Shown: in pieces, positions 4,762-16,603 of the stretch
Layout of the letters: every line of letters begins with the position of its first letter
Numbering within the stretch: position 1 is the stretch's first letter
Origin: Clostridium sp. CAG:253
GTDB lineage: Bacteria; Bacillota; Clostridia; Lachnospirales; Lachnospiraceae
Assembly: GCA_000436755.1 (NCBI GenBank)
Contig: FR887338.1
Location: forward strand, 17,286-50,612
Direction of reading: 5' to 3'
DNA: 33,327 nucleotides
Translations under genes and position numbers: made by a program
The notes under the pieces: generated by a model
Told to the model about the DNA's origin: nothing
Seen by the model: only the letters and a program-made list of their open reading frames with translations
The model's database searches: none

Positions 4762-4947
4762 GTAAAAACTTTCGTAAGTTATAAGATGATGCAATGGGCA
4801 AAATACTTTTTAATCCCAACATCATAAGATATGCAGAACAGGAATTGTCTAATGTTTAATAAATAACATTGAGAATAGTTTTGCTGATGACTTATAAGTT
4901 TGAAAAAACATATGAAAAAGAGGAACAGGAAAAGGAGGATTAGAAAA

Positions 4948-6696
4948 ATGACACCGATGAAATGGTTTTATTCATTTTTGAAGAAATACCGCTGGCGTAT
5001 GTTTTGGGGAATAGTGCTGACTACTATTGTTGCAGTTTGTGCTTTAGTCAGTCCATATGTTTCAAAGCTTATCGTTGACAGGGTTATTCAGAATGAACAG
5101 TATGGTATGCTTAGAAATCTAATTATTGTACTTATTGTTACTATTATAATAAGGGGAATATGCAGATTTTTCTCGCAGGTACTTTTTGAGACAAGTTCTC
5201 AGAATGTTCTTTACAGTATGCGTGATACGGTTTACAGAAAACTTCTTCAGGAGGATTTCGCATTTTACAATAAGAACAGAACAGGTGACCTGATGAGCCG
5301 CCAGACAGGTGATATGGATGCTATCAGACATTTTGTGGCATATGTAATATATGTTACATACGAGTATGTTTTATATTTTGTGATAGCACTTATCATGATT
5401 TTTGCAACAAATTTAAAAATGGCGTTATGTATGGTACTGGTATTGCCACTTACGGCACTTACAACATATTTTCAGGCAAAAAGCGTAAAACCGGCTTTTA
5501 GAAACTGCCGTAATGCTTTTTCAAGTCTTAATACTTTTGTTCAGGAAAATGTAAGTGGAAACAGGGTTGTAAAGGCTTTTGCAAAAGAAGATTATGAGAT
5601 GGAGAAATTTGCCGTTGAAAATGACAGATACAGGGATTCAGAGCTTGGTGCGGCAAATGTGTGGAAGAAATATGTACCGCTTTTTGAAGTTTTCTCAAAT
5701 ATTTTGACACTGGTACTTATGCTTGTCGGCGGTATTATGGTTGTTAACGGACAGATGACTATGGGTGACCTTGTTGCCGTAAACGGTTATCTTTGGATGC
5801 TTACAATGCCACTTCGTATGGCGGGATGGCTTATCAATGATATGCAGAGATTTACGACTTCCGTTGAAAAAATTTACAATACATATATTGCCGAGCCGGA
5901 TGTTAAGAAACCTCTTAATCCGGTTCACCGCAAGAAGCTTGATGGAAATGTAAAATTTGAGCATGTTTCATATCAGGCAGATGATGAGGACATTCTTCAT
6001 GATATTAACTTTGAGGTCAAGAAGGGTGAGACAGTCGGAATAATAGGAACTACAGGTGCAGGAAAGTCTACGGTAATGAATCTTTTATGCCGTTTCTTTG
6101 ATGCGACAGAGGGAAGTGTCTATGTTGATGGTGTAAATGTAAAAGACATGGATATGTACGAACTTAGAGAAAATATAGGTATTGCAATGCAGGATGTATT
6201 TCTTTTCTCGGATACGATTGAGGGAAATATAGCTTATGGAAGACCGGATTGCAGTTTTGAGGATGTAAAAAGAGTTGCAAAAATGGCAGATGCCAATTTA
6301 TTTATAAAAAATCTTCCTGACGGATATGACACAATTGTAGGTGAGCGTGGAGTTGGACTTTCCGGTGGACAGAAACAGAGAATTTCGCTTGCAAGAGCAC
6401 TTCTTAAAGACCCGGCAATCCTCATTCTTGATGATACAACGTCAGCTGTTGATATGGAAACGGAGAGTTATATTCAGAGACAGCTTGAAAATATAAATCA
6501 TGCATGCACGACATTTATAATTGCATACAGGATTTCTTCTATTAAAGATGCGGATAAAATACTTGTGCTTGACCAGGGAAGAATTATTGAGCAGGGAACG
6601 CATGATGAACTTGTAGCGAAGAATGGATATTATGCAACAGTTTATTATCATCAGTATCCTATGGCAGCTAAATTGAGAGAACAGGGGGTGAAATAG
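4948..6696 (+). CDS. ABC exporter subunit 1 (degenerate ATP-site half)
   Basis: The start is ATG 4948: AAGGAGG (4932-4938) is 9 bases upstream, so the in-frame TTG at 4900 is not needed. The 582 residues comprise six predicted membrane helices followed by an ATPase domain. The Walker A is GTTGAGKS (367-374), the signature LSGGQ is intact, and the Walker B is 'LILDDTTSAVD' with Asp496 in place of the catalytic Glu. The switch His is replaced by Tyr527 ('FIIAYRISSI'). This combination marks the degenerate-site subunit of heterodimeric multidrug/peptide exporters (BmrCD/LmrCD/TM287-288 type). It is followed directly by its partner at 6697. Substrate is unknown; regulation by the divergent AraC protein is inferred. 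Confidence 0.93.
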   Translation: MTPMKWFYSFLKKYRWRMFWGIVLTTIVAVCALVSPYVSKLIVDRVIQNEQYGMLRNLIIVLIVTIIIRGICRFFSQVLFETSSQNVLYSMRDTVYRKLLQEDFAFYNKNRTGDLMSRQTGDMDAIRHFVAYVIYVTYEYVLYFVIALIMIFATNLKMALCMVLVLPLTALTTYFQAKSVKPAFRNCRNAFSSLNTFVQENVSGNRVVKAFAKEDYEMEKFAVENDRYRDSELGAANVWKKYVPLFEVFSNILTLVLMLVGGIMVVNGQMTMGDLVAVNGYLWMLTMPLRMAGWLINDMQRFTTSVEKIYNTYIAEPDVKKPLNPVHRKKLDGNVKFEHVSYQADDEDILHDINFEVKKGETVGIIGTTGAGKSTVMNLLCRFFDATEGSVYVDGVNVKDMDMYELRENIGIAMQDVFLFSDTIEGNIAYGRPDCSFEDVKRVAKMADANLFIKNLPDGYDTIVGERGVGLSGGQKQRISLARALLKDPAILILDDTTSAVDMETESYIQRQLENINHACTTFIIAYRISSIKDADKILVLDQGRIIEQGTHDELVAKNGYYATVYYHQYPMAAKLREQGVK

Positions 6697-8475
6697 ATGG
6701 CTAGAAACAAATATGATGTTGACGAAGTAGTAGAACAGAAATTTGATATTAAACAGCTTAAAAGACTTGTCGATTATATAAGACCTTATAAGGGGAAAAT
6801 GTTTTTTGTACTCGTGCTTATGCTTTCATCATCAGGACTTGGAATGTTTCTTATAAAGTTTCTGCAGATTGAAATGGATAAGTATATACCTGACAAAGAT
6901 ATAAAGGCTATTGTAATACTTACTGTGCTTGCAGGTATTATTGTTCTTTATTCGGTAATAAGCACAAGAATAAAAATAGATGTTACTACTAAGGTTGGTC
7001 AGGATATAATACATACGATAAGAGAAGATATTTTTAAACATCTTCAGGAACTTCCGTTTAGTTATTATGATGAAAGACCGCATGGAAAGATTCAGGTAAG
7101 GGTGGTAAATTATGTAAATAACCTTAGTGACCTTCTTTCAAATGGTATCATAAATACAATAACAGACCTTTGCAATCTTATTTTTATATTGATATTTATG
7201 TTTGCAATGAGTCCAAAACTTACACTTATATGTCTTTGCGGACTGCCTGTGCTTATAATATATGTTGTATTTTTAAAGAGGAGACAGAGCCATGCATGGC
7301 AGGTTCAGAGTAACAAACAGTCAAATTTAAATGCCTACATAGCAGAGAGTATTAACGGTATCAGAGTTACACAGGCATTTGTAAGAGAAGAAAAAAATAT
7401 GGATATATTTAATGATTTAAGTATGTCATATAAAAATGCGTGGCTTAAAGCTGTGTATTACAACTTTGCGATGGGACCGATGGTTGACCTTATATCAACA
7501 ATAACAACATCATTTATATATGTAGTTGGTGTTTCATGTATTATAAACGGCGGACAGTCGGGCGTCACAATTGGTGTTCTTATTGCATTTACGGCTTATA
7601 TAAGCAGATTCTGGGCACCGATAAATACTATTGCAAGTTTTTATAACAGTCTTCTTACTGCTATTTCATATCTTGAAAGAATATTTGAAACCATAGATGA
7701 GCCTGTAGAGGTTAAGGATGCTCCGGATGCCACTGATATGCCTCCGATAAAAGGAGATGTGTCTTTTAAACATGTAAGATTCAGCTATGAAGATGGAGTG
7801 CCTATTTTAAAAGATGTAAGTTTTGATGTAAAGCAGGGACAGACAATAGCGATAGTAGGTCCTACAGGAGCAGGCAAAACGACAATTGTAAATCTTTTGA
7901 GCCGCTTTTACAATGTTGACAGCGGAGAGGTTCTTATAGATGGAATTGACATATCAAAAGTAAAAATACATTCACTTAGAACACAGATGGGTGTAATGAT
8001 GCAGGACAGCTTTATATTTTCGGGAACTATTATGGATAACATCAGATACGGAAATAAGACTGCAACTGATGAAGAAGTAATAAAAGCGGCAAAGACAGTA
8101 TGTGCTCATGATTTTATTATGGAGATGGAAGACGGTTATAACACTCAGGTAAATGAGAGAGGAAGCAGACTTTCAGTAGGACAGCGACAGCTTATTTCAT
8201 TTGCAAGGGCACTGCTCGCAAATCCGGCAATACTTATACTTGATGAAGCTACTTCAAGTATTGATACAGAAACGGAAATCGTACTTCAGGAAGGTCTTAA
8301 CAATCTTCTTAAAGGAAGAACATCGTTTATTATTGCACATAGACTCTCTACGATTAAAAATGCCGACACTATTATGTATATTGATAAAGGCGGCATTGTG
8401 GAGGCAGGAAGTCATGATGAGCTTCTTGAAAATAAAGGGGCGTATTACGACCTCTATATGTCCCAGTATTTATAG
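6697..8475 (+). CDS. ABC exporter subunit 2 (catalytic ATP-site half)
   Basis: The ATG directly abuts the TAG of subunit 1, with GGGGGTG as ribosome site inside the upstream gene, so translation is coupled. The 592 residues have six predicted membrane helices and an ATPase domain. Walker A is GPTGAGKT (388-395), Walker B is LILDEATSSID with catalytic Glu517, and the switch is His548. Its signature is LSVGQ rather than LSGGQ. That deviant signature would pair with subunit 1's degenerate Walker site, while subunit 1's canonical LSGGQ pairs with this subunit's intact site. This is the expected asymmetry of a heterodimer. The residues show this directly; the transported substrate cannot be read from sequence. 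Confidence 0.94.
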   Translation: MARNKYDVDEVVEQKFDIKQLKRLVDYIRPYKGKMFFVLVLMLSSSGLGMFLIKFLQIEMDKYIPDKDIKAIVILTVLAGIIVLYSVISTRIKIDVTTKVGQDIIHTIREDIFKHLQELPFSYYDERPHGKIQVRVVNYVNNLSDLLSNGIINTITDLCNLIFILIFMFAMSPKLTLICLCGLPVLIIYVVFLKRRQSHAWQVQSNKQSNLNAYIAESINGIRVTQAFVREEKNMDIFNDLSMSYKNAWLKAVYYNFAMGPMVDLISTITTSFIYVVGVSCIINGGQSGVTIGVLIAFTAYISRFWAPINTIASFYNSLLTAISYLERIFETIDEPVEVKDAPDATDMPPIKGDVSFKHVRFSYEDGVPILKDVSFDVKQGQTIAIVGPTGAGKTTIVNLLSRFYNVDSGEVLIDGIDISKVKIHSLRTQMGVMMQDSFIFSGTIMDNIRYGNKTATDEEVIKAAKTVCAHDFIMEMEDGYNTQVNERGSRLSVGQRQLISFARALLANPAILILDEATSSIDTETEIVLQEGLNNLLKGRTSFIIAHRLSTIKNADTIMYIDKGGIVEAGSHDELLENKGAYYDLYMSQYL

Positions 8476-8492: not shown

Positions 8493-8590
8493 ACAGTGCC
8501 ATACATATATCTTGCACGCTCAGTAACGCTTGCGTTCTGAGAGTATGGTTGCAAAATATGTATGGCACTGTTGCCTTTACTTTGTTTTTT
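8493..8590 (+). terminator. Long nested hairpin after the exporter operon, probable terminator
   Basis: A perfect 16-bp stem joins 8493-8508 (starting ACAGTGCC) and 8556-8571 (ending GGCACTGT). Inside the loop is a second hairpin, CTCAG (8519-8523) with CTGAG (8537-8541), enclosing AACGC-TTGCGTT. A T-rich stretch (8581-8590) follows within 20 bases. The size and nesting exceed an ordinary terminator, so it may be an immobile palindromic repeat acting as one. Confidence 0.65.
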
Positions 8591-8708
8591 GGGAATGTTA
8601 TGATAAACATATCTATATGATAAATAATCTATATGATAGCTTTATTTTAAAGAAAATATCAGACACTATGGCTTTGCGTTTAGAGGCAAAGAAGTGCTTA
8701 TAGGATGA
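8575..8708 (+). repeat. 134-bp direct repeat, left copy (contains DUF1703 gene-tail remnant)
   Basis: This segment matches 16456-16589 base for base without indels, with two mismatches near its left end. Its last 60 bases (8649-8708) are identical to the 3' end of the gene at 8779-10473 and encode ENIRHYGFAFRGKEVLIG plus stop. Upstream of that the frame is closed by TAG (8637-8639), so only the tail of a gene is present. It forms the left flank of the DUF1703 gene. The remaining sequence to 8778 shows only that gene's ribosome site. Confidence 0.92.
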
Positions 8709-8778: not shown

Positions 8779-10473
8779 ATGGCGAGAGTGGTTGGTATAG
8801 GAAAACAGGATTTTGAAAAAATCATACAGGAAAATTGTTTTTATGTGGATAAAACAGCCTTTATAAAAGAGTGGTGGGAGTATAAAGATGATGTAACACT
8901 TATAACCCGCCCACGCCGTTTTGGAAAGACATTGAATATGAGTATGCTCAATTGTTTTTTCTCAAATAAGTATGCAGACAGAGGGGATTTGTTTGAGGGA
9001 CTTGATATATGGAAAGATGAAAAGTATCGAGAGATTCAGGGGACATATCCAGTTATTTTTCTTAGTTTTGCGGGGGTAAAAGGAAAGGATTATGTAACTG
9101 CAAAACAGCAGATATGTGCAAAAATAGTAAAAATATATGAAGAAAACAGATTTTTGCTTGATTCAGATATAATAAGTGATACAGAAAAAGCAAGATATAT
9201 TTCTTTTTTGGAGCATCCAAATGAGCAGGATATTTCATATACATTAAATGATTTAAGTGATTATCTTAGCAGATATTATGGAAAGGATGTAATAATTCTG
9301 CTTGACGAATATGATACACCTATGCAGGAGGCATATGTAAGCGGATATTGGGAAGAACTTGCAGCGTTTACAAGAAGCCTTTTTAATTCAACATTTAAGA
9401 CAAATCCGTATCTTGAGAGAGCCATTATGACAGGGATAACAAGGGTTTCAAAAGAAAGTATATTCTCTGATTTGAATAATCTTAAAGTAGTGACGGTCAC
9501 AAGTGATGAATATTCTGATTGTTTTGGTTTTACGGAGAAAGAAGTTTTTAACGCACTTGATGAGCAGGGACTTTCAGATGAAAAAGAAAAGGTGAAATTA
9601 TGGTATGATGGTTTTACTTTTGGAAACAAAACAGATATTTATAATCCGTGGTCGATTACTAATTTCCTTGATGAAAAGAGATATCGTACCTTTTGGGCGT
9701 CGACAAGTTCAAATAGTCTTGTATCAAAACTTATACAGGCGGGCTCAGTGAATATAAAAAGGATAATGGAAGAACTTTTGGAAGGAAAGCATTTAAAAAC
9801 TGAATTAGATGAACAGATAGTATTTAATCAGCTCGATTCAAGTTCAGAGGCAATATGGAGTCTGCTTTTGGCAAGTGGGTATCTTAAATTAGAACATGTA
9901 GACTTTGAAAATGTGGAAGGTGAAAATATATATGAATTGAGTCTTACAAATTTTGAAGTGAAATTAATGTTTGAAAATATGATAAAAGCGTGGTTTAAGA
10001 CAAGAGACGATTCATCGGACGAATTTGTAAAAGCTATGTTTGGCGGAGATTTAGATGCTATGAATTATTATATGAATGAAATTACATGTAGTACTTTCAG
10101 CTGCTTTGATGTTGCGGGAAAAGATGAATCAAGGATAAGACCTGAGAATTTTTACCATGGATTTGTATTAGGACTTATGGTTAGTCAGAAAAAAGATTAT
10201 ATAGTTACTTCAAATCGCGAAAGTGGTTTCGGAAGATATGATATAATGCTTGAGCCAAAGGACAAGGAGAATATCAAACTGCCTGGAATAGTGATTGAAT
10301 TTAAGGTGATAAATCCTAGAAAAGAGAGTTCTCTTGAAGATACGGTAAATGAGGCGTTAAAGCAGATAGAAGAAAAAAATTATGATGCAGAGCTTATAAA
10401 AAGAGGTGTGAAAAAAGAAAATATCAGACACTATGGCTTTGCGTTTAGAGGCAAAGAAGTGCTTATAGGATGA
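8779..10473 (+). CDS. AAA-ATPase-like / PD-(D/E)XK nuclease superfamily protein (DUF1703 type)
   Basis: The start is ATG 8779, with GGGAGGT (8766-8772) 6 bases upstream. The product is 564 residues, typical for the family. The N-terminal AAA-ATPase_like (PF09820) domain has a P-loop variant RPRRFGKT (Lys50) and a Walker B 'VIILLDEYDTP' (Asp176/Glu177). The C-terminal PDDEXK_9 (DUF1703) domain shows Asp488 ('GRYDIML') and Glu507-x-Lys509 ('VIEFKV'), the expected metal-site residues. These genes are abundant in gut Clostridia and Bacteroidetes and of unproven function; defence or mobile-DNA roles are only suspected. The gene is flanked by perfect 60-bp direct repeats of its own 3' end (8649-8708 and 10414-10473), suggesting insertion or tandem duplication. 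Confidence 0.92.
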   Translation: MARVVGIGKQDFEKIIQENCFYVDKTAFIKEWWEYKDDVTLITRPRRFGKTLNMSMLNCFFSNKYADRGDLFEGLDIWKDEKYREIQGTYPVIFLSFAGVKGKDYVTAKQQICAKIVKIYEENRFLLDSDIISDTEKARYISFLEHPNEQDISYTLNDLSDYLSRYYGKDVIILLDEYDTPMQEAYVSGYWEELAAFTRSLFNSTFKTNPYLERAIMTGITRVSKESIFSDLNNLKVVTVTSDEYSDCFGFTEKEVFNALDEQGLSDEKEKVKLWYDGFTFGNKTDIYNPWSITNFLDEKRYRTFWASTSSNSLVSKLIQAGSVNIKRIMEELLEGKHLKTELDEQIVFNQLDSSSEAIWSLLLASGYLKLEHVDFENVEGENIYELSLTNFEVKLMFENMIKAWFKTRDDSSDEFVKAMFGGDLDAMNYYMNEITCSTFSCFDVAGKDESRIRPENFYHGFVLGLMVSQKKDYIVTSNRESGFGRYDIMLEPKDKENIKLPGIVIEFKVINPRKESSLEDTVNEALKQIEEKNYDAELIKRGVKKENIRHYGFAFRGKEVLIG

Positions 10474-10502: not shown

Positions 10503-11192
10503 TTATATTCTAAGCATATTTAAAACATATTCATCAAATTTTTGTTTGAGTAAATTGGTGTAACGGCGACTTATCGGAAATGAAATTCCGTTATGTAAGA
10601 TTACTTTTTTTTCTTGAATTTTCTTATAGTGTTTTAAGTTTATGATTATTGAGCGTGAAATAGGACAAAAATTAAATTCTTCAAGTTCTTTTGCCCATTC
10701 TTTCATTGATTTGCGGCTTGAAAAAGAGTTTCCGTTTTTTGTGTGAAAAATACTATATTTTTGTTCTGAACACAGATATAGTATTTCTTCGCAAGGAACA
10801 GCGATGTTGTCGTCTATTTTGACTGGTAAAAAATTATGGCTTAGGTAAGCTGCTTTTTCAATGTTATGTCTTATTGATGTTTCTGAAAATGGTTTGGAAA
10901 TAAATGAAATTACATTTCGTCCAAAAGCATCTTTTATCTGTTCATTGTGAGATGTAATAAATATAATTAAGGTAAAGGGAGAACTCTTTTCTAAGATATT
11001 TTTTACTTCTATACCTGTCATGTCTTTCATTTCAATATCCAAAAAAAGTAATGTAAGTGATAAATATATATTGGAACTAAGGAGTTTCTCGCCTGACTCA
11101 AACTGGGATATATCATTGTAACCAAGCTTTTTACATAAAATTAATAGTTGTGTTCTTATTTGTAAGTCATCATCACAGATTCCGATTTTCAT
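10503..11192 (-). CDS. LytTR-family response regulator (AgrA/ComE-like)
   Basis: The product is 229 residues. The receiver domain shows the acidic pocket 'CDDDL' (residues 6-10), phosphoacceptor Asp52 in 'LFLDIEM', 'FITSHNE' and Lys in 'ISKPF'. The C-terminal 100 residues fit a LytTR DNA-binding domain ('VPCEEILYLCSEQKYSIFHT', 'FCPISRSIIINLKHYKKI', 'FPISRRYTNLLKQKF'). GGGAGG precedes the ATG. It follows the histidine kinase on the same strand after a 209-bp gap holding its own promoter and a paired direct-repeat operator, which implies autoregulation. It probably also activates the peptide/ABC operon at 12996 onward. Confidence 0.94.
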   Translation of the reverse strand: MKIGICDDDLQIRTQLLILCKKLGYNDISQFESGEKLLSSNIYLSLTLLFLDIEMKDMTGIEVKNILEKSSPFTLIIFITSHNEQIKDAFGRNVISFISKPFSETSIRHNIEKAAYLSHNFLPVKIDDNIAVPCEEILYLCSEQKYSIFHTKNGNSFSSRKSMKEWAKELEEFNFCPISRSIIINLKHYKKIQEKKVILHNGISFPISRRYTNLLKQKFDEYVLNMLRI

Positions 11193-11233
11193 TGTTAAAG
11201 TTCCTCCCTGATGTTATAAAGTATATATTTGTT

Positions 11234-11242
11234 ATGTTATCA
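11234..11242 (-). promoter_or_regulatory. Extended -10 of the response-regulator promoter
   Basis: On the minus strand this reads TGA-TAACAT. It lies 26 bp downstream of the 13-bp repeat pair at 11269-11301, exactly the geometry seen at the peptide/ABC promoter (12902 to 12929). No consensus -35 is present, as expected when an activator occupies the adjacent DNA. Confidence 0.65.
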
Positions 11243-11268
11243 AGTTAAAGGATAAAAAACAACATTTA

Positions 11269-11301
11269 TGCGATAAGTGGTCAATTTATGCGATAAGTGG
11301 T
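11269..11301 (-). promoter_or_regulatory. Predicted LytTR operator upstream of the response regulator
   Basis: On the minus strand two identical copies of ACCACTTATCGCA (11301-11289 and 11281-11269) are separated by 7 bp, a 20-bp period. LytTR regulators (ComE, BlpR, PlnC, AgrA) bind paired direct repeats of about 9-11 bp with a period near two helical turns, often beginning ACC-TT. The match to 12870-12902 in word and spacing makes this a credible operator. Confidence 0.8.
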
Positions 11302-11312
11302 AATTTTTTATA

Positions 11313-11400
11313 TTATAGGAACCGCTTCGCGAACCTTATAATCAATTGGCGGCACAAGAACAGTGCCTTTTATCAGAAATTACTTCATAATTTCTGATAA
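11313..11400. other. Cluster of three hairpins between kinase and regulator genes
   Basis: Three dyads lie in tandem: ATTATAGG/CCTTATAAT around a CGC-TTC-GCG core (11313-11343), GGCAC/GTGCC (11351-11355, 11363-11367), and a perfect 13-bp stem TTATCAGAAATTA/TAATTTCTGATAA (11370-11382, 11388-11400). The last abuts the kinase stop codon but has no U-run on the minus strand. They may attenuate read-through from the kinase or protect its mRNA end. Confidence 0.6.
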
Positions 11401-11401
11401 G

Positions 11402-12730
11402 TTATATTATATTATGCAAGAATACATAGGTATAAAAAGTATTTTTTTCTGATTTAAGTTCAAGTTTTCCGTTATATTTTTTAATTGTATTATTTACATT
11501 TTTTAGTCCAAAACCATGATTTATGCTATCGGATTTTAAAGTGAAAAAGTTTGTGCCAGATTGATTTGGAAGTGATGTGCAGGTGTTTTCAATATACATT
11601 GTGATATTATTTTCGTCATTATAGAGCGAAACATATATATGTTTATCAGTTTGTTGTTTATTATTTTTATCTGAAATTTGGTCAGTAGGTGTGATACGGC
11701 ATATAGATTCGTAAGCATTTTTTAGCAAATTTGAAATTATAACACAGAGGTCGTCATTACTTACAAAAGTATTTTCTAAAAATTTTCCGTCGATTTTAAA
11801 TTCAGTATTTTTAGGTAAGTTTTCATAAAAATAGTTTATGATGGCATCTGCAATTACATTGTTGGTAGATATAAAATATACATTTGCTTTTATTTGTGTG
11901 ATTTTTTCTACATAAATTTTTAAATCTTCAAAATTATTATTTTGAGCAAGTGCCTGCATTGCAGTTATATGATAATTGTAGTCATGTTTAAAGGCACGCA
12001 AATCCATATTTTTATTTTGCAGGTCCTTATAGTACTGCTCTTCTAATGAAAGCATTTTTGATTTTAAATTGTCAATTTGTTCAAGCTCAGAATGTATATG
12101 TGAAATACGAAAATACAAAACAAGTATAATAATACTTAGTATTATCATTATGTAAATTGCCAACATTAACAGTCGGCGTCCTATATAGTTTATATTTTGG
12201 TAAAATAGTAAACAAGAAACACCTGACAGAAAAAAATCGACAAATATTACAGGTAGGATTAGAGTCAGATTTTTTGTTTTAATTTTTTTGAAAGTATTAA
12301 TATCAATATTTATTTTGGATTTAAGCATAGCAATAGATGTCAGCATTATTACAAGTGATAATAAAATAATGAGTATATGTAATAATTTATTATTATATGT
12401 GATATGTATTGCAAGACAAAGGGTATAAAAACAGATAGAGTTTATTATATTGATTGCAAGTGTCAATATAGTAACAATAAATATAATAATGAACAGCGAT
12501 TCTTTGAATAATAACAATACAATGGGAAATATAATAAAGGTTTCAGGCAGTGGTGTGTTTGAAAAATATGTATATATTCCCCATGCGAGCATAAAAGCAA
12601 GACTTAAGTATTGCCGTATTTTTGAAGTGCTCATAGTAATGAATAATATATTTTTTAGAATATATAAAATAATTGTAAGTTCTAATATGTAGTTGAGAGT
12701 TTGTCCAATGTTAATGAGTATTAAATTCAT
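11402..12730 (-). CDS. AgrC-like membrane sensor histidine kinase (HPK10 family)
   Basis: The product is 442 residues. The first 205 are almost entirely hydrophobic, with about six to seven membrane helices, followed by a coiled linker. The phosphoacceptor motif 'FKHDYNYH' places His249 in the HDYxxH pattern of AgrC/ComD-type kinases. The GHKL ATPase has an N-box 'VIISNLLKNAYESI' and G-box 'GFGLKNVNNTIKKYNG'. Such kinases usually sense secreted peptides. No agrB-like processing protease lies in the window, so the signal source is unclear. Ribosome site AAAGGAAA precedes the ATG. A strong consensus promoter lies at 12766-12794, so kinase expression is probably constitutive. Confidence 0.93.
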   Translation of the reverse strand: MNLILINIGQTLNYILELTIILYILKNILFITMSTSKIRQYLSLAFMLAWGIYTYFSNTPLPETFIIFPIVLLLFKESLFIIIFIVTILTLAINIINSICFYTLCLAIHITYNNKLLHILIILLSLVIMLTSIAMLKSKINIDINTFKKIKTKNLTLILPVIFVDFFLSGVSCLLFYQNINYIGRRLLMLAIYIMIILSIIILVLYFRISHIHSELEQIDNLKSKMLSLEEQYYKDLQNKNMDLRAFKHDYNYHITAMQALAQNNNFEDLKIYVEKITQIKANVYFISTNNVIADAIINYFYENLPKNTEFKIDGKFLENTFVSNDDLCVIISNLLKNAYESICRITPTDQISDKNNKQQTDKHIYVSLYNDENNITMYIENTCTSLPNQSGTNFFTLKSDSINHGFGLKNVNNTIKKYNGKLELKSEKNTFYTYVFLHNII

Positions 12731-12765
12731 AAAAATTGTTTCCTTTTTTAAATTATATTTATATA

Positions 12766-12794
12766 AGTATAAAATATAACATTATATAAGTCAA
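12766..12794 (-). promoter_or_regulatory. Consensus promoter of the histidine kinase gene
   Basis: On the minus strand TTGACT (12794-12789) and TATACT (12771-12766) are separated by exactly 17 bp. The predicted transcription start is about 30 bases before the kinase ATG. Confidence 0.75.
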
Positions 12795-12869
12795 AATTAT
12801 ATTAGTGTTAATAAACAAGCTATGTTTATACTTAATGTCATTAGGATACGATTGAACAATAAAAAAATT

Positions 12870-12902
12870 ACCGTTTATCGCAAAAAACGACCATTTGTCG
12901 CA
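12870..12902 (+). promoter_or_regulatory. Predicted LytTR operator of the peptide/ABC operon
   Basis: ACCGTTTATCGCA (12870-12882) and ACCATTTGTCGCA (12890-12902) form a direct repeat with a 20-bp period. Each matches the response-regulator operator word ACCACTTATCGCA at 10 or 11 of 13 positions. The pair lies just upstream of the -35 region of the promoter at 12929-12937. Confidence 0.8.
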
Positions 12903-12928
12903 TTGTTCTAGAAAATATTATATATGTC

Positions 12929-12937
12929 TGCTATGAT
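12929..12937 (+). promoter_or_regulatory. Extended -10 of the peptide/ABC operon promoter
   Basis: TGC-TATGAT is an extended -10. The -35 position (12909-12914) is AGAAAA, not a consensus, so activation by the upstream-bound LytTR regulator is expected. The predicted start is near 12944, giving a leader of about 50 bases. Confidence 0.7.
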
Positions 12938-12995
12938 TAAAATAATCGAATATTGCAATGTTTGAAAATTTAATTGTAAAGGAGTGTAATGAATT

Positions 12996-13052
12996 ATGAG
13001 TTTTTTTACAGATGACAATTGGTTAGAATTTTGGAAAAGATTTTTTTGCTAG
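12996..13052 (+). CDS. Short peptide ORF (18 residues), first gene of the LytTR-controlled operon
   Basis: ATG 12996 follows AAAGGAG (12978-12984) by 11 bases and encodes MSFFTDDNWLEFWKRFFC then TAG. The peptide is amphipathic, aromatic-rich and ends in Cys, compatible with a signal peptide or leader but matching no family I recognise. The last codons lie on a run of seven T (13041-13047). One extra T would extend the frame to about 38 residues ending near 13111, so length variation or a frameshift is possible. A competing ATG at 12989 gives only eight codons. It may also be the head of a truncated gene, because a permease-gene remnant begins at 13097. Confidence 0.45.
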   Translation: MSFFTDDNWLEFWKRFFC

Positions 13053-13096
13053 AATTCATATTTTCGTGTATGGATGGAAGTGATAAAAAATTGCAT

Positions 13097-13158
13097 GAAC
13101 AGGGGTTTTGATAAGTACGATTACATTTATATTTAAGGTGAGACAGGATGAATTATAA
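13097..13158 (+). pseudogene. 3' remnant of an ABC permease gene (14677-type)
   Basis: Bases 13097-13180 match 15476-15559 with only a few substitutions. Bases 13097-13158 encode the last residues of the 14677-15537 permease (...TFIFKVRQDEL, stop TAA) with no upstream coding part, overlapping the start of the next gene exactly as in the 15.5-kb copy. It shows that the gene at 13148 originally followed a 14677-type permease. Confidence 0.85.
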
Positions 13159-13843
13159 AAGTGTTATAAGCAGTTATCTGGGGCTGTCGGGGATGTATGC
13201 GGCTTTCTGGTATTGGGAAGAAAAATATCTTATATATACTGAGAAGAAAGAAGATTTATTGGGAGCGATAGTTGGAACACATGGGGGATATGGTCATTAT
13301 ATGAATATCGCAGTTATATATATGGCGGTATTTTTGATGTTTGTTTTTAAGGAGATAGAGCCTTTTTCGATAAAAGCGGTATCAAGGGCAGGAAGGACTA
13401 TATCGTTTAGAAAATGTTTTTTACAGATGCTTGAACTGAGTGCAGGTTATTCGTTTATATATGTGGGGGTGCAGGTTGTAGGAGTGTCTATATTTGTTGA
13501 CAAAGATATACTTATTAAAAATAATTTCTGGGGTATAATGATGTTTTATTATATTGCAGTATTTATTATATTCAGCTTTGGCGGAGTATGTTATCTGCTA
13601 TTGTATGTGATAACAAAATTAAAAATAGTATCATTATTACTGACAATAGCCGTAAATATATTTGTAGTATTTTTTCTTAAGGCAGACAACTGCTACTTTG
13701 GTTTGACGATAATAGATAACATGTCTTTTGGAGGATATATGCAGATAGCTATATGGCTTCTGAAAAGAGTAAAGGATTTTGCCATAACAACAGGGATATA
13801 TATAGTTGCAGGAATTATTTATGAAAAAAAGGATATTGTGTGA
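13148..13843 (+). CDS. ABC transporter permease-like integral membrane protein
   Basis: The product is 231 residues with about six hydrophobic segments (e.g. 'AVIYMAVFLMFVF', 'YSFIYVGVQVVGVSIFV', 'MMFYYIAVFIIFSFGGVCY', 'IVSLLLTIAVNIFVVFF') and short charged loops. No motif names the family. It lies between the peptide ORF and a BcrA-type ATPase, so it is probably one of the membrane subunits of that transporter. The ribosome site is weak, because the ATG overlaps the tail remnant of another permease, implying past translational coupling. A copy with most of its middle deleted lies at 15527-15633. Confidence 0.75.
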   Translation: MNYKSVISSYLGLSGMYAAFWYWEEKYLIYTEKKEDLLGAIVGTHGGYGHYMNIAVIYMAVFLMFVFKEIEPFSIKAVSRAGRTISFRKCFLQMLELSAGYSFIYVGVQVVGVSIFVDKDILIKNNFWGIMMFYYIAVFIIFSFGGVCYLLLYVITKLKIVSLLLTIAVNIFVVFFLKADNCYFGLTIIDNMSFGGYMQIAIWLLKRVKDFAITTGIYIVAGIIYEKKDIV

Positions 13844-13948: not shown

Positions 13949-14590
13949 ATGGAAGTGGAAGTTAAAAATTATAGCAAAAAACTTAAAGGCAGAAATGTGC
14001 TTGATAATGTATCGTACAAATTTGAAGGTGGAAATATATATGGTTTGTATGGCAGAAATGGTTCGGGAAAGACAATGTTAATGAGAGCTGTTGCTGGTCT
14101 GATTTTTCCAACATCAGGAGAGGTGATTATAGATGGGAAAGTTCTTCATAAGGAAATAAGTTTTCCGAAAGATATGGGCGTTATAATAGAAAATATGGAA
14201 CTTATGCCGCAGTATGATGCATATGACAATTTAAAGATTCTTGGAAAAATCAGAAAGACTGCGACAGATGATGACATAAATAGCACATTGGAAAAAGTTG
14301 GTCTGCATGATGTTAAAGGAAAGAAAGTAAGAACATATTCTCTTGGAATGAAGCAGAAACTTGCAATAGCGCAGGCGATATTTGAGCATCCTAAATTGTT
14401 GCTTTTAGACGAGCCGACTAATGCACTAGACGAAGAAAGCATAAATGATATAAGAAAACTTCTGCTTGAATTAAAAGAAAAAGGTGTATTGATTATAGTG
14501 GCAAGTCACAATAAAGAGGACATTGAGCTTTTATCAGATGTGAAGATAAATATGGCAGATGGAAAGATTAAATCGGAGGTAAGGAAGTGA
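13949..14590 (+). CDS. BcrA/lantibiotic-type ABC transporter ATP-binding protein
   Basis: The product is 213 residues: a single ATPase domain with Walker A GRNGSGKT (Lys41), signature 'YSLGMKQ' (residues 130-136), Walker B 'LLLLDEPTN' (Asp154, Glu155) and switch His187. At the Q-loop position it has 'GVIIENMELMP' (Glu81) instead of Gln. That is usual in the BcrA/NatA-like family that exports or protects against peptides such as bacitracin and lantibiotics. GGGAGGAAG precedes the ATG. It is followed by permease genes at 14677 and 15643. A truncated copy of its first codons lies at 16394. Confidence 0.93.
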   Translation: MEVEVKNYSKKLKGRNVLDNVSYKFEGGNIYGLYGRNGSGKTMLMRAVAGLIFPTSGEVIIDGKVLHKEISFPKDMGVIIENMELMPQYDAYDNLKILGKIRKTATDDDINSTLEKVGLHDVKGKKVRTYSLGMKQKLAIAQAIFEHPKLLLLDEPTNALDEESINDIRKLLLELKEKGVLIIVASHNKEDIELLSDVKINMADGKIKSEVRK

Positions 14591-14657: not shown

Positions 14658-14676
14658 CTTCGGAATGGAGATAAAA

Positions 14677-15537
14677 ATGTTAAAGAAAGAAATACTTAGT
14701 GTATTAAAGAGTAAAAGAGTGTTAATAATTGCATTGATTATTTTTTTGATTCCGATTATGGATATAAATATGGCTGCTAAACAATTGCAAGTTAGTTATA
14801 AAAGGGCACATAAAGAGGAAATACTGGAGGCTGATCGTGAATCAGAAATAGAATGTGAAAAAGAGGGCGGAAGATTTATAAGTGGTTGGCTGGCACATCC
14901 GGCATATGCATCATTTTTGTCACGGAGTACACAAGGGCATACTACACAGATTATGATTTTATGGCTTTTGCCGTTTTTTGTACTTAATCTGGTAAGTGAC
15001 AGATATATATGGGAATCGAAAAAGGGGTATACAAATATAATGCTTTCAAGGGGTTCAAGGAAAAAATATATGTTGAGTAAATATGCTGCATCGTTTTTGA
15101 TACCATTTGTTGTATTTGCATTGAGTCTGCTTTTGAATTTTGTACTTGCCCAGATAATTTTTAGAGATGGGAATAATTTTATGGGTTTGGAGGTTTTATT
15201 TGATGATAAGTACGAAAAATGGTTTAGGATAGAGGGAAGGTATCCAAATCTAATGTATCTTTTATATGTTTTTGTTACGGCATTTCTAGTTGGGATGTGT
15301 GGACTTATAACACAGTCACTGGCATTTATAAGTAAGAGATATACTATTACATATATTGTCGGATTTTTTATATGGATGTGGCTTCAGACGACGCCATACA
15401 ATTTGACATATGCCACACAGCCTTTTATAGAGTATGGTTTTGAAGATTTTATAAAATCGGTTGCTTTATATGTGGGAACAGGGCTTTTGATAAGTACAGT
15501 TACATTTATATTTAAGGTGAGACAGGATGAATTATAA
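14677..15537 (+). CDS. ABC-2-type transporter permease
   Basis: The start is ATG 14677, preceded by TGGAG (14666-14670) at 6 bases; the ATG at 14665 overlaps that site. The product is 286 residues. Its first helix follows 'MLKKEILSVLKSKRVL', then comes a soluble extracytoplasmic loop of about 60 charged residues and five further hydrophobic segments ('MILWLLPFFVLNLV', 'FLIPFVVFALSLLLNFVLA', 'LYVFVTAFLVGMCGL', 'YIVGFFIWMWLQ', 'GTGLLISTVTFIF'). This layout is typical of permeases paired with BcrA-type ATPases. Its stop overlaps the head of a deleted permease gene (15527). Confidence 0.85.
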   Translation: MLKKEILSVLKSKRVLIIALIIFLIPIMDINMAAKQLQVSYKRAHKEEILEADRESEIECEKEGGRFISGWLAHPAYASFLSRSTQGHTTQIMILWLLPFFVLNLVSDRYIWESKKGYTNIMLSRGSRKKYMLSKYAASFLIPFVVFALSLLLNFVLAQIIFRDGNNFMGLEVLFDDKYEKWFRIEGRYPNLMYLLYVFVTAFLVGMCGLITQSLAFISKRYTITYIVGFFIWMWLQTTPYNLTYATQPFIEYGFEDFIKSVALYVGTGLLISTVTFIFKVRQDEL

Positions 15538-15640
15538 AAGTGTTATAAGCAGTTATCTGTGGCATAATGGTGTTTTCAGAAAGCAGACAACTGCTGTTTT
15601 GGTCTGACAATAATAGATGCCATGTCTTTTGGGGGTGAAG
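15527..15640 (+). pseudogene. Internally deleted copy of the 13148 permease gene
   Basis: Bases 15527-15559 match the start of the 13148 gene (MNYKSVISSYL). Bases 15573-15633 match its codons near 13672-13732. The roughly 490 bases between are missing, and the joined frame stops after 26 codons at TGA (15605-15607). The original operon order, 14677-type permease followed by 13148-type permease with overlapping stop/start, is thus preserved as a relic. Confidence 0.88.
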
Positions 15641-15642
15641 TG

Positions 15643-16359
15643 ATGAATATTTTGAGTAATAAAAAATTCTGGTGTATTATGGGAATGTTTCTTTATGTAT
15701 CATATGTATTTAGAATAAATGTGGTATTTAAGTATGAAAATATTTTTGCTGGTGTAAAGTTTGTTGGTGATCCTATTTTTTATGCAGGAATACTGTTTCT
15801 GTTTGGTCTTGTATTGTTTTATATGTTTATGGATACGGAAAAATATGTAAATGGTTATGGGATATTGCATGTAACCAGAAACAGAAAAAGATACATGATA
15901 GTTGGAAAGATTGTTTTTAATCACATAAAAGGTCTTGTACAGATAATATTCTCATTGATTGTTATTTATTTTCTTGAGGCTAAAGTTTTACATATGAAAG
16001 AAACCGAAAGTGACATAAGACAATTTATATATTATATAATGGTATTTTACATGGTGTGTTTAAATCTTGCATTGTGGGAGGCGATATTTGAGATTATATT
16101 TGATGCCAGAATTGCGATTATGATTGAAATGGTGATTTTGGTATTTCATATATTTTTGGGTGATTTGATTTACACATGTGGTAAAAGTAAATATCTTTAT
16201 CTTTTGTGTTACAGCAACCTTGCGATGACAGGCAGGAGTAATAAGATAGCACTGTCCAAAATAGTAGTGCTTGGTGTACTTACAATATATATTCTAGTAA
16301 AAATATTTTTGTTATTTATGATTTATAATAAAAAAGATATTATACAGGGAAATGTCTGA
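15643..16359 (+). CDS. Third ABC-permease-like membrane protein
   Basis: The start is ATG 15643, preceded by GGGGGTGA (15631-15638); the ATG at 15622 lies in a relic of another gene. The product is 238 residues with about six hydrophobic segments ('IFYAGILFLFGLVLFYMFM', 'GLVQIIFSLIVIYFL', 'YYIMVFYMVCLNLALWEAI', 'IAIMIEMVILVFHIFLGDLIYT', 'ILVKIFLLFMIYNKKD'). No family motif is visible. Position suggests a membrane partner of the ATPase at 13949. Note that its start now depends on sequence inherited from a deleted permease. Confidence 0.75.
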   Translation: MNILSNKKFWCIMGMFLYVSYVFRINVVFKYENIFAGVKFVGDPIFYAGILFLFGLVLFYMFMDTEKYVNGYGILHVTRNRKRYMIVGKIVFNHIKGLVQIIFSLIVIYFLEAKVLHMKETESDIRQFIYYIMVFYMVCLNLALWEAIFEIIFDARIAIMIEMVILVFHIFLGDLIYTCGKSKYLYLLCYSNLAMTGRSNKIALSKIVVLGVLTIYILVKIFLLFMIYNKKDIIQGNV

Positions 16360-16417: not shown

Positions 16418-16471
16418 AAAGCAAAGTAAAGCAGGATTGCAAGGTGTTAGTCCTGCTTTACTTTGCTTTTT
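16416..16471 (+). terminator. Strong terminator of the peptide/ABC operon
   Basis: A perfect 21-bp inverted repeat (16416-16436 and 16451-16471; core GCAAAGTAAAGCAGGA) with a 14-base loop ends in TTTTT. With A5 on its left arm it could also work on the minus strand. Confidence 0.92.
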
Positions 16472-16603
16472 GTGAATGTTATGATAAACATATCTATATG
16501 ATAAATAATCTATATGATAGCTTTATTTTAAAGAAAATATCAGACACTATGGCTTTGCGTTTAGAGGCAAAGAAGTGCTTATAGGATGAGGCTGATGTTT
16601 TTG
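16456..16603 (+). repeat. 134-bp direct repeat, right copy, fused to the DUF1703 3' flank
   Basis: The left part (16456-16589) equals 8575-8708 with two mismatches. The right part (16530-16603) equals 10414-10487. It therefore has the upstream flank of the left copy and the downstream flank of the gene copy, which is what recombination across the DUF1703 gene would leave. Confidence 0.92.

Follow-up and report, generated by a model that had tools for sequence, protein, structure and literature searches.

Matched LytTR repeat pairs, a candidate leaderless Trp-rich peptide and an ABC operon in Clostridium sp. CAG:253

Two pairs of direct repeats, one on each strand, lie on either side of a sensor kinase gene in a stretch of DNA from Clostridium sp. 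CAG:253 (33,327 nucleotides, hereafter the window), and they raise the question of which genes they serve and what the system as a whole may do for the bacterium. An earlier note on this DNA had read them as LytTR operator-promoter pairs that define a self-contained regulon. The elements on which this reading depends are the following:

10503..11192, minus strand: response regulator of 229 aa with a receiver (PF00072, 56.6 bits) and a LytTR DNA-binding domain (PF04397, 65.1 bits)
11234..11262, minus strand: predicted core of the regulator promoter, TTGTTT at 11262-11257, then the extended -10 TGA-TAACAT at 11242-11234
11269..11301, minus strand: putative operator pair of the response-regulator promoter, ACCACTTATCGCA-N7-ACCACTTATCGCA
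11402..12730, minus strand: GHKL sensor histidine kinase of 442 aa (PF14501, 57.4 bits; PF02518), with the H-box AFKHDYNYH from residue 246
12766..12794 (read 12794-12766), minus strand: promoter-like TTGACT-17-TATACT of the kinase, 10/12 match
12870..12902, plus strand: putative operator pair of the peptide/ABC promoter, ACCGTTTATCGCA-N7-ACCATTTGTCGCA
12909..12937, plus strand: predicted core of the peptide/ABC promoter, TAGAAA-14-TGC-TATGAT, with an extended -10

Both pairs are 13-bp direct repeats with a 20-bp period and 0 mismatches to the pattern ACC(A/G)(C/T)TT(A/G)TCGCA; word, strands and period are exactly those of the earlier note, and TGA-TAACAT and TGC-TATGAT begin 26 bp past the end of each pair, as it had claimed. 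They are the only pairs in the window (periods 18-23, up to 4 mismatches in all) and contain its only four 0-mismatch copies of the 13-mer, and for single 13-mers with up to 3 mismatches the excess over chance is slight (45 against 34.1 ± 5.5 expected, with 4/100 shuffles reaching 45). A regulator with receiver and LytTR domains, an adjoining GHKL kinase and repeats about two turns apart upstream of the -35 place the locus among the LytTR two-component systems, and the phospho-acceptor Asp of the regulator (D52) is invariant in 9 aligned regulators.

A regulator-based scan of genome contigs yielded 44 loci (L numbers denote loci and G numbers genomes), the nearest named relative by regulator being Butyribacter intestini (G001, 74% identity), whose operator, promoter and leader are alignable with those of the window (blastn, 78% over 116 bp). 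At all five loci found by the regulator alone, at 46-74% identity, pairs with up to 4 mismatches per pair are present (L001, L002, L003, L004 and L006). They are also present at L097 (regulator 47%), a locus first found via its pair and with a regulator match in the profile search, and in a second system of L104 (49%), while L123 (47%) and L125 (51%) were found through the pair itself and therefore add targets, not conservation. Including the window, 10 systems at 9 loci are referred to below as close systems. The 13-mer word is absent from six deeper loci with regulators of 37-44% identity (L005, L007, L011, L094, L095 and L096); L011 may have another word with a 20-bp period. The same core with other tails occurs in L139 and L142 (ACCRTTCGTCC), in L154 (ACCRTTCGTGCA) and in L157 (ACCATTCGTACAT), which may mean that the CGCA tail belongs to this regulator group alone; L103 and L126, where a CGCA-type word accompanies regulators only 27-30% identical, speak against this.

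The pairs are also rare genome-wide, as counted in overlapping sets of relatives' genomes. With up to 3 mismatches they were found in 6/13 genomes of the studied loci (reversed-pattern control, 0), in 7/145 relatives of G001 (control, 1 genome), in 2/397 of the family of G001, the second being a 3-mismatch pair without a promoter (control, 1), in 4/195 relatives of G002 (control, 0) and in 5/196 of G012, two of them 3-mismatch single matches (control, 0). The shorter core was present in 3/397 genomes with 0 mismatches (control, 0) and, with 1 mismatch, in 7/61 genomes of each of three overlapping neighbour sets (controls, 0, 2 and 2 of 61). B. intestini has 14 regulator-profile matches among 20 scored candidates, yet only 2 pairs, both at the locus, and G003, G004 and G006 have 2, 1 and 1 pairs, again all at the locus; G024 and G032 carry pairs, and their regulators in the profile search are less close than those of the others. 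Conservation at orthologous loci and rarity elsewhere make the operator-promoter reading right in kind, but its self-contained regulon with one dedicated operon fits some relatives only: G002 has five pairs on three contigs, and in B. intestini one of the two pairs serves an operon starting with a BspA-type LRR protein and none is placed for the regulator. The regulon is small and not always self-contained.

Three further pairs with ACCGTTCGTCG-type words lie on one contig at L124, at 5971(+), 12514(-) and 17559(-), before an ABC gene, a lipoprotein-like gene (judged by eye) and another gene; the stretch read around them contains no close LytTR regulator.

As for the promoters, the assertion that neither has a -35 is apt for the window in so far as the candidates 17 bp before the -10, TTGTTT (3/6) and TAGAAA (4/6), are degenerate, but not for the class, in which a TTG-type -35 is conserved across 33 aligned members. 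The geometry was taken from 40 distinct core pairs of all loci, with up to 2 mismatches in 20 positions and chosen blind to promoters, which are not independent by descent because the genomes are related. Between 15 and 59 bp after the 9-bp core of these pairs, TGnTAnnnT occurs 26 times, 24 of them at 31-34 bp and 14 at 33 bp, and TAnnnT is found at 31-34 bp in 33/40. Positions 10-12 after the core are T in 31, T in 24 and G in 27 of the 33 aligned members, and the conserved TTG, 10 bp after the 9-bp core, is the predicted start of the -35, a property of the class that is degenerate in the window. Judged from sequence, both window promoters are very probably LytTR-activated. The core word, a period of 20 bp, a TTG placed 10 bp beyond the core and a TGn -10 at 33 bp together give a predictive rule for LytTR targets, which can be used in uncultured Lachnospiraceae.

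The operator word, which the earlier note had not recognised as known, is not new, because Table 3 of PMC6193735 already gives both word and geometry for LytTR promoters. In that table the promoters of the LytTR Regulatory System (LRS) have a 9-bp word similar to ACC(A/G)CTTAT with 11-13 bp between repeats, and the paper places the repeats mostly 10 bp before the -35, with a TGn-extended -10 in several; Treponema bryantii, for instance, has ACCACTTAT-11 bp-GCCACTTAT, then 10 bp and the -35, and close words are given for Clostridium botulinum, Staphylococcus carnosus and Roseburia. According to the same paper, an LRS consists of a LytTR regulator and then a membrane inhibitor, is positively autoregulated and is set apart from two-component systems, two LRS types being linked with ABC transporters (PMC6193735). 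Compared with the LRS, the window has in common the word, the repeat gap, the 10 bp to the -35, the TGn-extended -10, the ABC genes and, as a prediction, positive autoregulation, but its regulator has a receiver domain and an adjoining GHKL kinase, which places it outside the LRS, and it also differs in its longer half-site (the CGCA tail), its 20-bp period and the Trp-rich peptide that follows. The excerpt of PMC8895600 contains nothing on repeats, and RR_1586 of C. difficile is OmpR-type in the excerpt of PMC6222199 and was discarded as irrelevant.

Positive autoregulation, also predicted by the earlier note, is supported in part, since a pair between kinase and regulator, placed for the regulator, exists in 3/10 close systems (the window, the first L104 system and L003), whereas the remaining close systems have pairs at target promoters only; outside the close group, L103 and L126 have a pair before the regulator-kinase operon. 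The second L104 system (11086-13218) is a complete kinase-regulator copy with its own pair and a regulator 49% identical to that of the window; its pair points away from the kinase, and the region beyond has no Trp peptide. A constitutive promoter had been claimed for the kinase, and TTGACT-17-TATACT is indeed present with a 10/12 match, but its status as a consensus promoter is no better than plausible, because this AT-rich region has no more promoter-like matches than chance would give (18 against 17.9 ± 4.3). When the kinase served as query in a protein search, 17 of the 7,996 candidates scored were relatives at E 1e-40 or better, all as sequences without gene context. The N-terminal half was less conserved than the C-terminal half in 10/10 comparisons with the window kinase, and weaker conservation of the sensor half is usual for sensor kinases.

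On the plus strand, the second promoter is followed by these features:

12996..13052, plus strand: candidate leaderless Trp-rich peptide of 18 aa, MSFFTDDNWLEFWKRFFC, first ORF after the ABC-operon promoter, with AGGAG at 12980-12984
13148..13843, plus strand: WxPxxD-family membrane protein of 231 aa (NCBIfam NF035952, 73.7 bits, cut-off 70)
13949..14590, plus strand: ABC transporter ATPase of 213 aa (PF00005; best NCBIfam model TIGR03740, lantibiotic protection, below its cut-off)
14665..15537, plus strand: DUF2705-like protein of 290 aa, presumed permease (22.2 bits, just below the cut-off of 22.4)
15527..15636, plus strand: apparent leftover of a duplicated WxPxxD gene, of which only the start and a late piece persist and which continues into the following gene
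15622..16359, plus strand: DUF2705 protein of 245 aa, presumed permease (26.5 bits, cut-off 22.4)

The role of the 290-aa protein is presumed because the ATPase is its neighbour. Against 195 NCBIfam models, the best match of the ATPase was TIGR03740 and the third-best a model of phenol-soluble modulin export, both far below the curated cut-offs (172 against 309.75 bits for TIGR03740 and 128.5 against 375 bits for PmtC), which leaves it outside the lantibiotic-protection transporters even though that model was the best of all. Pieces of the WxPxxD gene are duplicated (13097-13184 and 15476-15563, 95%; 13672-13734 and 15573-15635, 84%), and what lies between the two DUF2705 genes appears to be a second copy that suffered an internal deletion and continues into the downstream DUF2705 gene. 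An AAA-ATPase/PDDEXK gene, the two-component system and the ABC operon are together enclosed by a 134-bp direct repeat (8575-8708 and 16456-16589, 99% identity); since a third copy (10340-10473, 64%) coincides with the 3' end of that AAA-ATPase gene, the flanking repeats look like 3' remnants of a gene of this type, and they may mark an exchangeable island. An Rfam scan of the window at the gathering threshold gave no matches.

While the earlier note had spoken of a peptide/ABC operon, it missed the peptide as a recurring element, and the recurring leaderless Trp-rich peptide ORF is the new part. Counterparts of 15-23 aa were found at 12 other LytTR loci. The likeness of the first ORF after the target pair was first noticed in five loci, and the family was then extended by L123 and L125 and after that by L011, L095, L005, L139, L142 and L144. 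The 13 peptides have 2-4 Trp in 15-23 residues, spaced by 0-4 residues, a net charge of -1 to +2, F-G near the end in 7/13 and a TTG start in 4/13 (L001, L011, L139 and L005). The L005 peptide, with its TTG start and weak Shine-Dalgarno, is the least sure member, L139 was first detected by the peptide scan (as L082), and the L144 peptide, located behind the kinase and between short repeats, with no pair, was counted on motif only. At L144 (6560-6860) a 15-codon Trp-rich ORF is flanked by two similar ACCGAATAATC(G/A)GTTTCACCG stretches, and no LytTR pair was found there. In the window, AGGAG lies 11 nt from the ATG and an overlapping 8-codon ORF at 12989 is better spaced; the start at 12996 is a candidate, not a proven one. 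Little is kept between the window and B. intestini peptides beyond W..W...FF, and the latter has no intact gene downstream.

Among close systems, 7/10 have the peptide after the pair; those without it are L006 and L097, both also without the kinase, and the second L104 system, in which the kinase is present. The deeper locus L094 has neither kinase nor peptide, and regulator and target-like genes remain in L006, L097 and L094; the joint loss in L006 and L097 may be one event because these are close relatives. A kinase without such a peptide is found in L007, L096 and the second L104 system. Where a pair lies beside a LytTR regulator, the peptide is present at the later-found loci L123, L125, L139 and L142, and absent from L103, L126, L128, L154, L157, L167 and the second L104 system. 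None of five peptides tried had an NCBIfam match, and peptides of this size can slip past usual gene calling. No description of Trp-rich leaderless LytTR peptides was found among CC-licensed PMC papers, as far as excerpts go, and that of PMC13289728 contains nothing on them.

From the sites, their geometry, conservation and rarity, the gene content and the recurrence of the peptide ORF, we infer how binding, activation, translation, export and sensing might be connected. The GHKL histidine kinase and the LytTR response regulator would form an auto-amplifying switch, in which the regulator, presumably phosphorylated, would bind two head-to-tail half-sites ACCRYTYRTCGCA that lie 20 bp, i.e., two helical turns, apart. 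The bound sites would end just before the -35 region, and the regulator would recruit RNA polymerase to promoters whose TTG-type -35 is poor and whose -10 is TGn-extended. From one site the regulator itself would be driven, from the other a transcript that starts with the leaderless Trp-rich peptide and continues with the WxPxxD membrane protein, the ABC ATPase and the two DUF2705-type proteins. The peptide would then leave the cell, acting either as ligand of the kinase (autoinduction) or as an effector of modulin or bacteriocin type, with the ABC operon serving for its export or for protection from it. We consider this model of a GHKL/LytTR system with positive feedback on a Trp-rich peptide and ABC operon somewhat more probable than its negation, while the peptide ORF is probably a real product.

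That the Trp-rich ORFs are chance features, and the locus no more than a common LytTR two-component system and its ABC target operon, appears very improbable. Tiny ORFs preceded by a Shine-Dalgarno are frequent (3.6% of 59,740 random 120-bp start windows) and the motif was noticed post hoc, but when at least 2 Trp are also required, a rule set after the first five peptides had been seen, the background falls to 0.5%, family members included, against 7/10 close systems. A loose Trp-pattern filter on 210 sources returned 51 ORFs, of which 13, judged by eye, belong to the family and 38 do not; 32/38 of the others lie inside ORFs of at least 100 aa, against 0/13 of the family. The 13 family members, all near LytTR regulators, thus make up 13/19 filter ORFs outside long ORFs, the other six being ORFs set aside. 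It is also unlikely that the ORF is a regulatory leader (attenuator or translational coupling), with the switch sensing, e.g., a foreign antimicrobial peptide and the operon serving in detoxification. The ORF does occupy a position in the 5' leader, attenuators are known to include Trp-rich leader ORFs, and the ATPase resembles lantibiotic-protection ATPases. The aromatic pattern, however, recurs across differing lengths and residues, and L001, L095 and L144 have no same-strand ORF of at least 60 aa close behind the peptide; attenuation was set aside for the window leader RNA (12944-13150), which folds no better than shuffles (z 0.24).

If the ORF is a product, its role has to be weighed between signal and effector. 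That the peptide is the kinase signal, alone or also as an effector, is a possibility to which we give somewhat less than even chances, lowered because the second kinase-bearing L104 system lacks a peptide of its own; a signal fits a promoter with the regulator's sites, the absence of the peptide together with the kinase in a few cases and the less conserved sensor half. The ABC genes are just as compatible with a modulin- or bacteriocin-like effector, and one peptide may combine both roles. A purely effector role, as leaderless bacteriocin or modulin-like peptide, with the ABC operon exporting or immunising and the kinase sensing an unrelated cue, is rather unlikely, given that kinase and peptide are jointly missing from L006, L097 and L094 while regulator and target-like genes persist. 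The peptides are nevertheless short and aromatic, 10/13 are net positive or neutral, and their pooled hydrophobic moment is above that of shuffles (Fisher p 2.7e-4), mainly from 3/13 peptides (the window, L123 and L125), whereas 10/13 are individually no more amphipathic than shuffles at p 0.05. A precedent is offered by AgrA, also a LytTR regulator, which drives the phenol-soluble modulins exported by the Pmt ABC transporter, and behind the peptide of L123 and L125 come a small and a larger protein with export-signal-like and lipoprotein-like starts (by eye; no Pfam match) and then further genes, in L123 with an ABC ATPase.

Comparison with known peptide systems sets the locus apart from each of them. 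Agr systems share the GHKL kinase (AgrC), the LytTR regulator (AgrA) and its paired direct repeats, and the operator core is tied to an agr-type locus through L157 (6534-7236), where an AgrB gene directly follows a 21-bp-period pair, ACCATTCGTACAT twice, with the same core. Within the window, however, AgrB (PF04647) is absent from the 26 ORFs scanned (25/29 ORFs of at least 120 aa plus one of 73 aa), which places the system outside Agr, and no AgrD-like precursor was noticed on inspection by eye. The ComCDE, BlpRHC and Pln regulons combine a LytTR regulator, direct repeats, a small peptide with ABC genes and autoregulation, all of which the window appears to share, but its peptide is too short for the double-glycine leader of ComC and BlpC and shows no GG. 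No C39-peptidase domain was found among the same 26 ORFs, and the window is not assigned to the double-glycine pheromone systems; the ABC exporters at 4900-6696 and 6697-8475 have membrane and ATPase domains. Staphylococcal phenol-soluble modulins are leaderless, about 20 aa long, under a LytTR regulator and exported by the dedicated Pmt transporter, a combination like that predicted for the window, from which they are set apart by the low PmtC score of the ATPase and the Trp-rich peptides.

We tentatively suggest, as a reading that may well not hold, an undescribed peptide-signalling class of Lachnospiraceae and neighbours in which the unmodified peptide would be a pheromone and probably a membrane-active effector. 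Its members would be leaderless peptides of 15-23 residues that carry at least 2 Trp and have an aromatic-F-(G) C-terminus; LytTR-driven promoters would produce them and the adjacent GHKL kinase would detect them, and neither AgrB nor a double-glycine leader nor a peptidase would be involved. Should it indeed be produced, the peptide would represent a novel type of short, unprocessed signal or antimicrobial among common gut bacteria. In L139 and L142 regulator, kinase and peptide lie beside groES-groEL-like genes (by eye) with differing Trp-rich peptides, which makes these loci a good pair for the study of peptide divergence at a fixed site.
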